A stretch of DNA of 64,000 nucleotides from Agreia sp. COWG (GTDB taxonomy: Bacteria > Actinomycetota > Actinomycetes > Actinomycetales > Microbacteriaceae), in NCBI RefSeq assembly GCF_904528075.1, contig NZ_LR882035.1, forward strand, positions 1,116,001 through 1,180,000, in the 5' to 3' direction. Position 1 is the stretch's first letter. The number at the start of each line of letters is the position of its first letter. The notes beneath the pieces are model-generated. The model saw only the letters and a program-made list of their open reading frames with translations. It was not told the origin of the DNA and did no database searches. The position numbers and the translations under genes were made by a program. Positions 28,674 to 40,225 of the stretch are shown here, piece after piece.

Positions 28674-28680
28674 GAGTCTC

Positions 28681-28770
28681 AACACGGGAGTCCGGTGAGC
28701 CGGGCTGAGAGGAAGGTTCTCAACCTTCGACCGTCGAACCTGATCTGGATCATGCCAGCGCAGGGAGGAC
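28681..28770 (+). promoter_or_regulatory. TPP (THI-box) riboswitch
   Basis: The RNA shows both invariant parts of the thiamin-pyrophosphate aptamer: G-CTGAGA near 28703-28710, which binds the pyrimidine ring, and the segment CCTGATCTGGATCATGCCAGCGCAGGGA (28739-28766), which binds the pyrophosphate; a variable stem (AAGGTTCTCAACCTT) lies between. It precedes ykoE and should reduce expression of the transporter when thiamin pyrophosphate is plentiful. Confidence 0.95.
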
Positions 28771-28811
28771 ATCTCACGGTGCCGCCGGCAGCAAAGCCGC
28801 GCGGCCCAACC

Positions 28812-35207: not shown

Positions 35208-35426
35208 ATGATCCCCACACTCGCCGTCCTCCTTCTCGTCAACGCTCTCTGGAACGTGATCGTCTGGCCACGGTTCTACAAGCGCATCAGCGCGGATCCG
35301 CGGGCGCGCGACTCCGGCGGACGCCCGACCACGTTCTTGAAGGTGCACGCCGTGCTGATCGGCGTCTCCCTGTTGATCGCCACGGTGTCGCTGGTCTTCG
35401 CCGTGATCGCGTTGGTGGCAGGCTGA
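35208..35426 (+). CDS. SCO4848-type small membrane protein
   Basis: A 72-residue protein with two transmembrane helices (about residues 3-21 and 45-70) flanking a basic loop [14 protein letters not shown]. This pattern matches a small conserved actinobacterial membrane protein known from Streptomyces as SCO4848; its function is not known. TAGGAT ends eight bases before the ATG and shares the 60-bp divergent promoter region with orn. Confidence 0.7.
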
Positions 35427-36040: not shown

Positions 36041-36520
36041 ATGACCACCCGCCACCAGAAAACTGCACTCACCGCACTCGCCGGCCTGTCCCTCCTGGGA
36101 TTCGTGACCGGATGCGCGACGGACAGCACCGCCCAGACGACCGAGACGACCGCCCCCACCGCGGCGGCTGAATCCACCCCGGCCGCGACGGGCTCCGGTG
36201 CGGGCGCCGCGGCCTCGACCTCCACATACAAGGATGGCGAATACAAGGCCGAGGGCTCCTACACGTCGCCCGGCGGACCCGAAAAGGTCGGCGTCTCACT
36301 GACGCTCGCTGGAGATGTCATCACGGCCGTCACCGTGACGCCGGAATCGGAGAACCCGAACGGCAAGAAGTATCAGGGAGAGTTCGCCGACGGCATCTCC
36401 TCGGTCGTCGTGGGAAAGAGCATCGACGACATCAAGGTGTCCAAGGTTGCGGGAAGCTCCCTGACCAGCGGGGGGTTCAATGACGCCGTCGACCAGATCA
36501 AGGCCGAAGCCACTGCCTAG
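36041..36520 (+). CDS. FMN-binding-domain lipoprotein
   Basis: A 159-residue lipoprotein: signal peptide with lipobox V-T-G-C (Cys25), a Ser/Thr/Ala-rich linker to about residue 65, then one FMN_bind domain (K-D-G-E-Y-K-A-E-G-S, L-T-S-G-G-F-N-D-A-V-D-Q). Such domains carry FMN linked by phosphoester to Thr or Ser in an S/T-G-A-T/S motif; here the site reads A137-G-S-S140, so Ser139 or Ser140 would be the acceptor. It would be the extracytoplasmic electron carrier of this operon. Start 36041 is chosen because GGAGAG lies just upstream. The next gene, apbE, overlaps it by 41 bp. Confidence 0.85.
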   Translation: MTTRHQKTALTALAGLSLLGFVTGCATDSTAQTTETTAPTAAAESTPAATGSGAGAAASTSTYKDGEYKAEGSYTSPGGPEKVGVSLTLAGDVITAVTVTPESENPNGKKYQGEFADGISSVVVGKSIDDIKVSKVAGSSLTSGGFNDAVDQIKAEATA

Positions 36521-37367
36521 CGCACACTTCTCGGGGATCGGCACGTCGTGGCAGCTCGACCTGCCGACGGCCGTCCCCGAGAGGGTGCTCGCCAGGGTCG
36601 AGGATCGCGTCGCGCAATTCGACCGTGACTACTCGCGTTTTCGGAGCGATTCCCTCGTGTCTCGGCTGGCCGTCCACGGGGGAGAGGTCGAATTTCCCGC
36701 TGATGCCCCTGCCCTCTTCGACCTCTACGACCTCCTCGACTCCATCAGCGACGGGGCGGTGACTCCGCTCGTGGGGAGATCGCTCGAGCACCTCGGATAC
36801 GACCGCGAGTACAGCCTCAGGGCGCAATCCGGCGCTGTCGTTCCCGAGAGGTGGTCGTCGGTCGTCGAGCGGTCTGGTCGCTCTGTGTCCACGAAGATCC
36901 CCGCGCTCATCGACGTCGGAGCCGCGGGCAAGGGTTATCTCGCCGACCTCGTGGGGCAGGTGCTGCTCGACGAGGGCCTCGACGAGTTCGTCATCGACGC
37001 CAGCGGCGACATCGTTTCGCGCGGGGAGCCGCTCCGGGTCGGCCTCGAGCATCCGTTCGATCCGAGCAAGGCCATCGGTGTCGTGACGATCGAGAACCAG
37101 GCGCTCTGCGCATCCGGTTCCAACCGCCGGGTGTGGGGCGAGGGGCTCCATCACATCCTGGACGGTCGCACGGGAACACCCACGTCCGACGTTATCGCCA
37201 CGTGGGCGATAGCCGAATCGGGCCTTGTCGCCGACGGGCTCGCGACGGCCCTGTTCTTCGTGCCGCCGGCCGCACTCGCTGAACATTTCGACTTCGACTG
37301 GGTGCGTATGCGCTCGGACGGAACCGCAGAACGATCCCGCACGTTGCGGGGAGAGGTCTTCTCCTGA
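36480..37367 (+). CDS. apbE: FAD:protein FMN transferase (ApbE)
   Basis: ApbE splits FAD and attaches FMN to a Thr or Ser of target proteins outside the membrane. The 295-residue protein has the N-terminal G-I-G-T-S-W segment, D-V-G-A-A-G-K-G-Y-L-A-D near residues 145-156, I-D-A-S-G-D-I near 172-178, H-H-I-L-D-G-R-T-G-T near 224-233 and A-D-G-L-A-T-A-L-F near 251-259. It has no evident signal peptide, so export may need another route or it acts on the cytosolic side. It begins inside the FMN-lipoprotein gene (GGGGGG before the ATG) and overlaps the following gene by one base. Confidence 0.92.
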   Translation: MTPSTRSRPKPLPSAHFSGIGTSWQLDLPTAVPERVLARVEDRVAQFDRDYSRFRSDSLVSRLAVHGGEVEFPADAPALFDLYDLLDSISDGAVTPLVGRSLEHLGYDREYSLRAQSGAVVPERWSSVVERSGRSVSTKIPALIDVGAAGKGYLADLVGQVLLDEGLDEFVIDASGDIVSRGEPLRVGLEHPFDPSKAIGVVTIENQALCASGSNRRVWGEGLHHILDGRTGTPTSDVIATWAIAESGLVADGLATALFFVPPAALAEHFDFDWVRMRSDGTAERSRTLRGEVFS

Positions 37368-38872
37368 TGGCTCGATTGGATGCCCTGCTCGGCAGGGTGC
37401 AGATGTACAGGCTGGTCAGTCTCGCGCTGGCAGTGATCGCCGCGATTGCCGTGGTCGAGAGCCTTGCGGGGGTGCTCGGTTTTCCGGTGCTCGACCTGCT
37501 CGCCTCGCTGGCCACCGTACTCGTCGCATGCGTGGTGGCGAACCGGGTGATGGCGCTGCTCTTCAGGGTCCGACCCCACACTGAGTCGTCCATCATCACC
37601 GCGCTTCTGCTGTTCTTTCTCTTCTTTCCGACGAGCGACGGGCAGGAGCTGCTGACCGTCGCCCTCGTCTCGGCGATCGCCGTAGCATCGAAGTACGTCA
37701 TCGCCTGGCGTGGTCGGCACATCTTCAACCCCGCCGCGATCGGTGCCGTCATCATCACCCTGACGCAACTGAACGCGTCGGTATGGTGGGTCGCCACCCC
37801 CGTTCTCTTGCCGTTCGTCGTTATCGGTGCGGCTCTGGTGCTCTACCGCACACGACAGCTGCCGATGGGCGTCGCGTTCATCGTTGTCGCTACCATCCTC
37901 ACGGCGGTCACCCAGGCGTCGTTCGGAAGAGCCCTCCCCGATGCCCTCGTCTACGCGCTCGGATCGACGCCCATCCTGTTCCTCGCGGGCTTCATGCTCA
38001 CGGAGCCGCTGACGCTACCGCCGCGGCAGTGGCAGCGGTTGGCCCTCGCAGCGGTCGTGGGGGTGCTCTTCTCTGTGCCGTTCTCGATCGGTCCCGTCTT
38101 CTCGAGCCCCGAGTTGGCGCTCGTCGTAGGCAACCTCCTGGCGTTCCTCGTCGGGCAGCGCCGCGGCGTCAGCCTCGAGTTCGCCAGCGCCGAGCAACTG
38201 ACGCCGTCGACCACGGAGTTCACCTTCTCATCACACCGGCCCGTCTCCTTCCGCGCCGGCCAATACATCGAACTGTCCGTCCCGCACTCGGGGGCAGACC
38301 GATCGGGTACGAGGCGGGTGTTCAGCATCGCCAGCGCTCCGAGCAACCCGCACGAGGTACGAGTCGGTGTGCGAATGGGCGAGTCCCCATCGAGCTTCAA
38401 GCGAGCGCTCGGTTCGCTGCGTCCCGGCCAGAAGATCCGGGCGAACCTCGTTGCCGGCGACTTCCTGCTGCCGACCGACCGGGCACGCAAGGTGCTGCTG
38501 GTGGCGGGCGGCATCGGCATCACACCGTTCATCAGCCAACTCGAACACGACGCTGCGGAGAGTGAGGCCAGGGACCTGGTTCTGTTCTACGCCGTTCGCG
38601 AGCACACCGAGCTGGCGTACTTCGAGACGCTCAGACGGCTGGGAACCAGGGTCGTGCTGTTGGCGCCGGAATCGCCGTCCCAGCTGCCGGACGGGTGGGC
38701 TTATGCCGGTTCCGGGCGCATCACCGCCGACGTCATCGAGAAGTACGTTCCCGACTTCGCCGAGAGGGTGTCTTTCGTCTCCGGGCCACCCCGTCTCGTC
38801 GGGGCAGTGCGCACAACGCTTCGCCGCATGGGCGTGCGTCGGGTGAAGACGGATGCCTTCTCGGGCTACTGA
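37367..38872 (+). CDS. NqrB/RnfD-like membrane domain fused to an FAD/NAD(P)-binding reductase
   Basis: A 501-residue two-part protein. Residues about 14-265 form eight to ten transmembrane helices with NqrB/RnfD landmarks: W-R-G-R-H-I-F-N-P-A-A (about residues 112-122) and F-M-L-T-E-P-L-T-L-P-P (about 208-218). The S/T-G-A-T flavinylation site of NqrB and RnfD is absent. Residues about 280-501 are a ferredoxin-NADP-reductase-like module: R-A-G-Q-Y-I near 297, R-R-V-F-S-I-A-S (FAD), A-G-G-I-G-I-T-P near 380 (nicotinamide) and V-S-G-P-P. No [2Fe-2S] cysteines follow. It likely moves electrons from NAD(P)H across the membrane to the FMN lipoprotein. Confidence 0.88.
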   Translation: MARLDALLGRVQMYRLVSLALAVIAAIAVVESLAGVLGFPVLDLLASLATVLVACVVANRVMALLFRVRPHTESSIITALLLFFLFFPTSDGQELLTVALVSAIAVASKYVIAWRGRHIFNPAAIGAVIITLTQLNASVWWVATPVLLPFVVIGAALVLYRTRQLPMGVAFIVVATILTAVTQASFGRALPDALVYALGSTPILFLAGFMLTEPLTLPPRQWQRLALAAVVGVLFSVPFSIGPVFSSPELALVVGNLLAFLVGQRRGVSLEFASAEQLTPSTTEFTFSSHRPVSFRAGQYIELSVPHSGADRSGTRRVFSIASAPSNPHEVRVGVRMGESPSSFKRALGSLRPGQKIRANLVAGDFLLPTDRARKVLLVAGGIGITPFISQLEHDAAESEARDLVLFYAVREHTELAYFETLRRLGTRVVLLAPESPSQLPDGWAYAGSGRITADVIEKYVPDFAERVSFVSGPPRLVGAVRTTLRRMGVRRVKTDAFSGY

Positions 38873-38913: not shown

Positions 38914-38950
38914 AACAGTGGTGCAGCGACGATGTCGCTGCACCACTGTT
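38914..38950. terminator. Strong bidirectional terminator
   Basis: A perfect 17-bp stem (AACAGTGGTGCAGCGAC and complement) with loop GAT between the convergent flavin operon and the following minus-strand gene. It ends in TGTT on both strands. Confidence 0.8.
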
Positions 38951-38982: not shown

Positions 38983-39897
38983 TCAGGCGTTGCGCGGCGG
39001 GAACGCGTTGACCGGGGGCGGCGTGGCGTCGTCGGAAGCGCCCTCGGCCTCTCGGCGGCGCTCGATGGCGTTGATGTTCGCCAGAACGCGCTGTGTCTCG
39101 ACCCGGGCGGCGCGCTGTTCTGCCGACTCGGTGTCACCCTCACGTGGAGCGTCGTTCTGCGTCGGGGCTGACGGCTCGGCGGTCGGCGTGTTCGACGTGG
39201 GGCTGGCGGCGTCGGGAGCGGCCTCGCCTGCCGGTGCCAGCCGCGGCGTCGAGTTCTGCGGGGTGGGTGCCTGGACGCGCGGCTGCGGCTGTGCCGGAGT
39301 GATGACCGTCGTCGCCTCGGACTCGGGCTTCATGAACTGCTCGTGATGCTGCTGCGCGACCCAGTCGTCTTGCTGGCGGGCCAGCATCTTCTCCGCATCG
39401 TCGTCTTCGAGCTTCCACCGGTCGAGATCATTGAGGAAGGCCTTCCGAGTGCGCCCCGGCTTGTCTTGCCATTCGATGAGGCGATCACGGAACTCGATGA
39501 CGGCGGGTTCGACGTGGTAGCCGAATGTGGCCGAATTGCGGCGCATGACAGACAGCGAATGAGCGGCCCAGTTCGCGGCGACGTCGGAGTTCTTGATGGG
39601 CAGCAGTCGAACCTGAATGTCGGCCTGGCCGACTGCCCGGTCAGACAGGATCTGCTCCTGAGGGGTGAGAGAGTTCCAGACGGATGCCTGCTCTGCCGCA
39701 TCGACGAGGGCGGCGATTGCTGCCACCTTCAGCTCGCGGTCGTGCTTCGCGAGCAGTCGCTTGATCGAGTTGCTCGCGATCCAGGCGCCGAGCAGCGCCG
39801 CGACGATGATCGCCACCGCGGGGAGCACGATGCCGGACACGACAAACCGTCCGTTGTTCGAGTTGAGCCAGTCTACGAAGCCGTTCCACCATTCCAT
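38983..39897 (-). CDS. Membrane-anchored protein with long disordered tail, function unknown
   Basis: A 304-residue protein. One N-terminal transmembrane helix (about residues 16-40: a run of Val, Ile, Ala, Leu) is followed by a helical, charged cytosolic region (residues 45-195, with K-H-D-R-E-L-K-V and W-K-L-E-D-D-D-A-E) and a Pro/Ala/Thr-rich tail (195-304). I recognise no enzymatic motif. The ATG at 39897 starts right before W-W-N-G-F-V-D-W-L; an upstream extension is not supported and a TAGTGT box lies seven bases before this ATG. Single gene. Confidence 0.65.
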   Translation of the reverse strand: MEWWNGFVDWLNSNNGRFVVSGIVLPAVAIIVAALLGAWIASNSIKRLLAKHDRELKVAAIAALVDAAEQASVWNSLTPQEQILSDRAVGQADIQVRLLPIKNSDVAANWAAHSLSVMRRNSATFGYHVEPAVIEFRDRLIEWQDKPGRTRKAFLNDLDRWKLEDDDAEKMLARQQDDWVAQQHHEQFMKPESEATTVITPAQPQPRVQAPTPQNSTPRLAPAGEAAPDAASPTSNTPTAEPSAPTQNDAPREGDTESAEQRAARVETQRVLANINAIERRREAEGASDDATPPPVNAFPPRNA

Positions 39898-39991
39898 GAG
39901 GCGAACACTACGACGCGACCGCGCACACGTCGGCGCGACGGGCCGAGGATCGACGGATTCGTGACCGCGCCTGGCGGCGGCGCTTCGGGCG

Positions 39992-40225
39992 TCAGCCGAA
40001 GCAGTCTCGAGCGTCGTCGAGCGACCAGAAATCACCCAGGTCGATGAGCCTCGTCGTGTTGGCGACCAATCGCCGCGCTGCGTAGCGAGGAGAACTCGGA
40101 TCGCTCGACTCTTCGATGTAGCCGACGACTCGGCCTGAGGGATGCACGACCCGCCAGAACCCGGAACGAAGCGATACCAATGCGGTGACGCTAAAGGTGG
40201 TGATCGACGGTGCTGCGGTTCTCAT
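39992..40225 (-). CDS. Small soluble protein, function unknown
   Basis: A 77-residue protein with the central stretch G-F-W-R-V-V-H-P-S-G-R-V-V-G-Y-I (about residues 22-37) followed by Y-A-A-R-R-L-V-A-N. It looks like a small beta-sheet-then-helix fold found, unannotated, in several Microbacteriaceae as far as I recall. No motif indicates a role. It lies between two minus-strand genes with its own ATG and an upstream CAGGAGTCGTC region that may serve for ribosome binding. A longer open frame that includes it runs antiparallel-out-of-frame through the neighbouring reductase and is not coding. Confidence 0.55.
   Translation of the reverse strand: MRTAAPSITTFSVTALVSLRSGFWRVVHPSGRVVGYIEESSDPSSPRYAARRLVANTTRLIDLGDFWSLDDARDCFG

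Follow-up and report, generated by a model that had tools for sequence, protein, structure and literature searches.

The closest described relatives of the system considered here are the NQR/RNF-like clusters, in which a membrane domain resembling NqrB/RnfD is fused to a PF00175 reductase module, and an FMN_bind protein and ApbE, the enzyme that attaches flavin mononucleotide (FMN) to proteins, are encoded in the same cluster. In the published accounts, electrons are proposed to pass one way in these systems, from reduced nicotinamide dinucleotide (NAD(P)H) to an extracytosolic FMN, and the clusters belong mainly to Actinobacteria and the candidate phyla radiation (Meheust 2021, PMC8238504; Huang 2024, PMC11334425). 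A pair from Ktedonobacter has been modelled: its membrane domain has no covalent FMN site, and the FMN of the lipoprotein was suggested to sample a non-covalent site in that domain (Huang 2024, PMC11334425). We examined a locus of this kind in Agreia sp. COWG, in a window of 64,000 nucleotides (contig NZ_LR882035.1, positions 1,116,001 to 1,180,000; coordinates below are those of the window). Three overlapping genes on the + strand, at 36041-38872, encode an FMN_bind lipoprotein, an ApbE and a membrane/reductase fusion protein. The operon is real and conserved, and of a kind already described; the member is new. With a probability of roughly 0.8, we regard it as belonging to the NQR/RNF-like class, electrons passing from NAD(P)H by way of flavin adenine dinucleotide (FAD) and the membrane domain to an FMN on Ser140 of the lipoprotein, loaded most simply in the cytosol, and from there to an acceptor outside.

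The operon and its described relatives

The lipoprotein gene (36041..36520, +) specifies 159 residues, with a Sec-type lipoprotein signal, the lipobox V-T-G-C (Cys25) and a PF04205 domain at residues 82-152 (24.1 bits; cut-off 22). Its neighbour, encoding the 295-residue FAD:protein FMN transferase ApbE (36480..37367, +), is taken to open at its first standard start, an ATG at 36480, 41 nt within the lipoprotein gene. Some relatives probably start about 10 codons further on, at a position not occupied by a start codon in the window. The ApbE product matches PF02424 with 129.6 bits, the domain starting at residue 21. The ATG of the fusion gene (37367..38872, +) overlaps the ApbE TGA by one base, and its 501-residue product consists of a PF03116 (NQR2_RnfD_RnfE) membrane half, approximately residues 1-270 (28.6 bits; cut-off 27.7), and a PF00175 reductase half, approximately residues 272-501 (37.7 bits). 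Pfam matches and sequence thus agree with the identities, order, overlaps and limits given to these genes in the first-pass annotation. That annotation missed two features, the signal-less ApbE and the lipoprotein's missing canonical flavinylation motif. It also overstated novelty, the same class and model having been published already (PMC8238504; PMC11334425): the window operon has the PF03116-like + PF00175 fusion, PF04205 and PF02424 matches above cut-off, and a signal on the FMN_bind protein, and since these are the elements of the 2021 definition, the arrangement is not new (PMC8238504).

Thirty loci, window included, were examined, with genes called by a simple script and clustered for neighbour comparison. 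The FMN_bind, ApbE and fusion genes are contiguous in 28, some of them with fusions at only 36-42% identity, from which we conclude that the arrangement is not due to chance, and the FMN_bind gene is upstream of the fusion in 30/30. The two exceptions are L127, which has no ApbE within its 17 kb and has one elsewhere in its genome, and L136, in which FMN_bind is about 2.7 kb further upstream. Comparison of gene order, which the first-pass annotation had proposed, therefore spoke in its favour: the fusion is not a gene that always occurs without the other two. At L141, a fusion homologue with a single internal stop is found beside FMN_bind and ApbE genes that match over most of their length.

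On the reading that we favour, the C-terminal module of the fusion would oxidise cytosolic NAD(P)H and pass the electrons through FAD, as its domain homology implies; they would then cross the membrane by the NqrB/RnfD-like domain, probably with the help of a non-covalent flavin in the manner suggested by Huang 2024 (PMC11334425), and be received by FMN on Ser140 of the surface lipoprotein. The ApbE of the operon would have attached this FMN; because the enzyme carries no export signal, the simplest view is that it does so in the cytosol, using the FAD present there, before Sec export. The reduced lipoprotein would finally pass its electrons on to an outside acceptor for which there is no dedicated partner gene. 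Taken as a whole, this path, as the first-pass annotation drew it, remains the likeliest reading; its least secure step is FMN attachment by the operon's ApbE, because the ApbE is signal-less and the lipoprotein lacks the canonical motif. For the acceptor our first guess, a tentative one that could easily prove wrong, is chelated ferric iron, followed by other small oxidants or envelope redox partners. The grounds for preferring ferric iron are thin: a VIT1-type iron transporter in six published clusters of the class (PMC8238504) and, in Bifidobacterium breve, likewise an actinobacterium, an apbE mutant and an iron-induced FMN-binding-protein cluster with phenotypes under ferrous-iron chelation, the authors interpreting apbE as an iron-sulphur factor (PMC5449479).

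Actinobacterial flavinylation clusters of another type, MsrQ-like, are also described: apbE is accompanied there by an FMN_bind gene and, in many cases, a PF00175 domain, and a haem membrane domain, PF01794, stands where the window has PF03116. The only PF01794 match in the Agreia sp. COWG genome is below cut-off and away from the operon.

The membrane domain and the proposed electron path

The N-terminal half of the fusion shows seven hydrophobic peaks, and the C-terminal half matched benzoate dioxygenase reductase and NqrF chains in profile comparison. Homology of the membrane half to NqrB/RnfD rests mainly on Pfam: among 78 homologues of the fusion, PF00175 is found in 76 and PF03116 in 35 at E<=0.01, the best at 8e-12. 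For a direct comparison we aligned stop-to-stop frames of PF03116 loci, starts uncut, seven of the nine being used (L224 and L232, which yielded no frame with the required pattern, were left out). The resulting profile alignment matches the F-N-P-A landmark and the later D-P/E-P landmark, and the loop that bears the covalent site is largely without counterpart in the fusions; the reductase half, used as a control, gave 0.2% against the same profile, no match. The motif [ST]GA[ST] is present within residues 1-275 of 4/159 fusion homologues, a count that cannot by itself exclude a covalent site, because the RnfD-type site does not follow this pattern. Even so, and in line with Huang 2024 (PMC11334425), covalent attachment of a flavin to the membrane half of the fusion seems unlikely.

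With Na+-NQR and RNF the operon shares NqrB/RnfD-like, FMN_bind and NqrF-like reductase parts. Unlike them, it has no second electron path back and no [ST]GA[ST] in its membrane domain, and a PF02508 search of the genome found no subunit of the RnfA/RnfE/NqrD/NqrE type; the first-pass description of the system as far smaller than Nqr or Rnf holds, the pump subunits being absent. Without the remaining membrane subunits of Nqr/Rnf, the system is not expected to pump ions. Homology of the membrane half to NqrB/RnfD could be taken to mean that it is a reduced Nqr/Rnf in which ion pumping persists, but both the missing subunits and the apparent departure of the electrons from the membrane, rather than their return, make this very improbable indeed.

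Several observations weigh against the one-way path to a flavinylated lipoprotein that we prefer. The membrane-domain match is marginal for the window sequence, because a PF03116 search of its own genome at E<=0.001 returned nothing, and comparison of the membrane half with the seven RnfD/NqrB frames reached 38.6% probability (E 3e-4, 194 columns). Within W-W-V-A-T-P (fusion residues 141-146, window 37787-37804), A143-T144-P145 falls, in a weak profile match, opposite A-T-P-L in an RnfD-type frame, the place at which RnfD carries FMN; of the 159 homologues, 139 have Thr at the position of T144, 6 have Ser and 14 have neither, and the A-T-P of the fusion could be a leftover of that site, or chance. 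The presumed flavin-attachment motif of the lipoprotein, S-K-V-A-G-S-S (residues 134-140, at 36440..36460, +; putative acceptor Ser140), identified by alignment and conservation, aligns with the D-x-x-S-G-A-T of other FMN_bind domains and agrees with the consensus only in the G and the hydroxyl acceptor; since it departs at the D, [S/T] and A positions, covalent FMN on the lipoprotein is not assured. The conserved neighbours that the first-pass annotation proposed to look for did not emerge, no gene outside the three being widely shared among the 30 loci, nor was an iron gene observed next to the operon. Finally, our literature searches found no biochemistry on any member of the class.

Flavin attachment before or after export

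The canonical motif D-x-x-[S/T]-G-A-[S/T] is not present in any of the three window proteins. In a set of 21 other FMN_bind domains, D is first in 17, S fourth in 19, A sixth in all 21 and T the acceptor in 17. The 30 clusters differ. At the sixth position 27 have S, and the 3 with A are L139 and L140, both distant, and the Patescibacteria cluster L013; 28 offer S as the acceptor and 2 offer T, and the motif opens with D in 9 and with S in 15. The clusters thus diverge from the published NQR/RNF-like class in that most have [AS]-G-S-S in their FMN_bind protein, G-S-S being present in 27/30. Among the matches listed for the lipoprotein, [AS]-G-S-S is found in 120/120 homologues, 111 of them opening the motif with S, 6 with T, 2 with D and 1 with G, figures that are not independent because these are close homologues. 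Anchoring is equally constant: Cys25 is invariant across 41 aligned homologues, a lipobox pattern is found in 119/120 among the matches listed, and 25 of the 30 cluster lipoproteins pass a hydrophobic-signal measure like that used for ApbE below. Among solved structures the FMN_bind profile matched only LpqN, through its signal and linker portion, and we took this match as spurious.

This conservation argues for a working Ser140. It could be supposed instead that A-G-S-S is a lost site, any FMN being held non-covalently and ApbE serving another protein; the window motif has, after all, lost the Asp, [S/T] and Ala of the consensus, and none of the operon's proteins offers a canonical one. We consider this improbable. 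Invariance of G-S-S among the matches listed is unexpected for a dead site, with the reservation that the homologues are closely related; an ApbE with its catalytic residues stays beside the lipoprotein in 28/30 loci; and a search of the genome found no second FMN_bind protein for it to serve. Moreover, replacement of the motif Asp by Ala is reported to have a minor effect, and Ser to be able to accept FMN, less well than Thr (PMC12052999).

The catalytic Ser, His and Asp named for the Vibrio and Listeria enzymes (PMC12052999) were mapped by alignment onto the ApbEs of the clusters, and are present in 28/28, 28/28 and 27/28 aligned sequences, respectively. The window ApbE, the only one found in its genome, has no signal peptide, lipobox or hydrophobic N-terminal segment. 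As a measure of export signals we took an ATG, GTG or TTG no more than 70 residues upstream of the domain that opens a stretch with an 11-residue Kyte-Doolittle mean of at least 1.8. A mis-annotated start hiding a signal peptide was rejected on this basis, since no in-frame start in these 70 residues adds a signal to the window protein. By the same measure no signal was found on the ApbEs of the clusters, 0/26 of those assessable; of the 29 found, L139 was dropped (start masked), and L122 and L008, whose upstream hydrophobicity is 1.35 and 0.87, have no start in range. Nor was any found on 50 other Actinomycetes ApbEs, a non-random set comprising 30 loci of best matches and 20 chosen from a split-match type, with some genomes giving two; in three of them the raw upstream frame reaches 1.75, 1.99 and 2.65, with no start codon in range ahead of these stretches. 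Outside Actinomycetota, 13 of 30 ApbEs carry a signal by this measure, in a set that includes several partial matches and L210, the ApbE of Patescibacteria cluster L013, which is counted among the clusters as well. As the remaining 17 are also signal-less, the condition is not unique to Actinobacteria, and it is documented in K. pneumoniae, where the substrate is cytosolic (PMC12052999).

In the present case a seemingly competent, apparently cytosolic transferase is paired with an exported substrate. We found no discussion of the signal-less ApbE in the accessible parts of the published accounts of the class (PMC8238504; PMC11334425). The same pairing is seen at sampled loci that are perhaps MsrQ-like, in which the FMN_bind proteins have a hydrophobic segment. 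In other Actinomycetes (L144-L193), where the sampled ApbEs are signal-less, 18 of 20 loci have a neighbouring FMN_bind protein, and all 18 of these proteins have a stretch of at least 1.8 ahead of the domain, a start codon not being required in this case.

Listeria extracellular electron transfer (FmnB/PplA) resembles the window system in that a flavinylated surface protein is fed from inside. It uses a separate NADH dehydrogenase. FmnB, unlike the window ApbE, is extracytosolic, and dependent on an FAD exporter of the energy-coupling factor (ECF) type (PMC9973259). The window ApbE might likewise work outside, reaching the cell surface by an unrecognised, non-classical route and flavinylating the lipoprotein after its export, as elsewhere in bacteria. 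ApbE is described as typically membrane-anchored and periplasmic, cytosolic ones being known, and a truncated, cytosolic ApbE failed to restore an apbE mutant (PMC12052999); a study of a Streptomyces multi-FMN protein assumes that bacterial flavin transferases are extracellular (PMC10339131). These precedents must be set against the uniform lack of a hydrophobic start segment in the cluster and other Actinomycetes enzymes, when the same measure detects one in many from outside the phylum, and against the fact that a cytosolic reaction would dispense with an FAD exporter. On balance we think the surface route unlikely, albeit deserving of serious attention.

Cytosolic loading, the preferred reading for the window, may extend further: at slightly under even odds, we propose that in Actinomycetes generally the precursor acquires its FMN from a cytosolic ApbE before export, and crosses by Sec with the flavin already in place. 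Work on bulky adducts makes it plausible that Sec tolerates bound FMN. ApbE can be active in a cytosol, since in published tests its substrates have been flavinylated in E. coli by co-expression of signal-truncated substrate and ApbE. Sec rather than Tat is expected because twin arginines precede the lipobox in only 1/120 homologues among the matches listed, and Tat export of a pre-flavinylated, folded lipoprotein was rejected as a general route on the same count. The A-G-S-S serine motif may itself be an adaptation to pre-export loading. In the openly accessible literature we found no statement that a cytosolic ApbE serves an exported substrate in actinobacteria. If the proposal is correct, the accepted order of extracytosolic flavinylation is inverted for a whole class of bacteria, and FAD export is not needed in Actinomycetes. 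The side on which attachment occurs bears on the cofactor supply of surface redox proteins and on the need for FAD exporters, and a genome in which a single ApbE, FMN_bind protein and membrane carrier are found isolates the question of whether flavinylation can precede export.

Two side observations concern ApbE itself. In the class-wide search, Actinomycetes ApbEs fall into two match types on the Pfam model, continuous and split (1-75 + about 125-266), which suggests that there are two subfamilies. In one Salinibacterium (L008:7091-7971) the ApbE match is split into two pieces that overlap, as a frameshift or an error of sequencing would produce.

Distribution and surroundings

The fusion has 3623 homologues at E<=1e-20 (8000 candidates scored), part of which match the reductase half only; the 120 among the matches listed have 98-100% query coverage. 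The closest named genomes are Agreia, with fusion identities of 75-80%. A full-length fusion was found in 23/60 relatives, own genome included: 7/8 in the genus, 14/29 in other genera of the family and 2/23 in the rest of the order. A phylum sample of 396 genomes gave 8 matches at E<=1e-40, again including its own. The presence of the system is thus ordinary for Microbacteriaceae, being already published and found in 14 of the 29 genomes sampled from other genera. ApbE is present in all 23 fusion-bearing relatives, adjacent to the fusion in 22 and the only one found in 13 (own included), and in 19/37 relatives without the fusion.

Conserved neighbours were rejected as a clue to the acceptor, the groups obtained from the 30 loci being judged too weak. 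The widest consists of ATP-binding proteins (ABC-type by eye), in 10 loci at scattered positions; the others reflect synteny of close relatives, or are P-type ATPases (by eye) in 5/30 loci, three of them of one genus. In the window itself no flanking gene is an obvious partner of the operon, which is in keeping with the first-pass statement that no partner reductase is encoded nearby. The flanks hold a tRNA-Arg gene, preceded by a short membrane-protein-like frame on the + strand that ends at 35426 and is also found in L113; on the opposite strand are an ABM-domain protein, an exonuclease (RNase_T) and a protein of the D-Ala-D-Ala carboxypeptidase type, and downstream, also on the opposite strand, a protein with no Pfam match and then an aldo/keto reductase.

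The fusion gene is separated from its convergent neighbour at 38983-40035 by a perfect 16-bp inverted repeat with a 5-nt loop (38914..38950), read from the sequence and possibly a bidirectional terminator; it is absent from the output of the terminator scan, which requires a T-run. Elsewhere in the window, at 28674-28781 (+), is a thiamine pyrophosphate riboswitch (RF00059, 55.3 bits, barely above the gathering score), and the genes that follow it resemble, judging from their sequences by eye, an ECF-type vitamin transporter.

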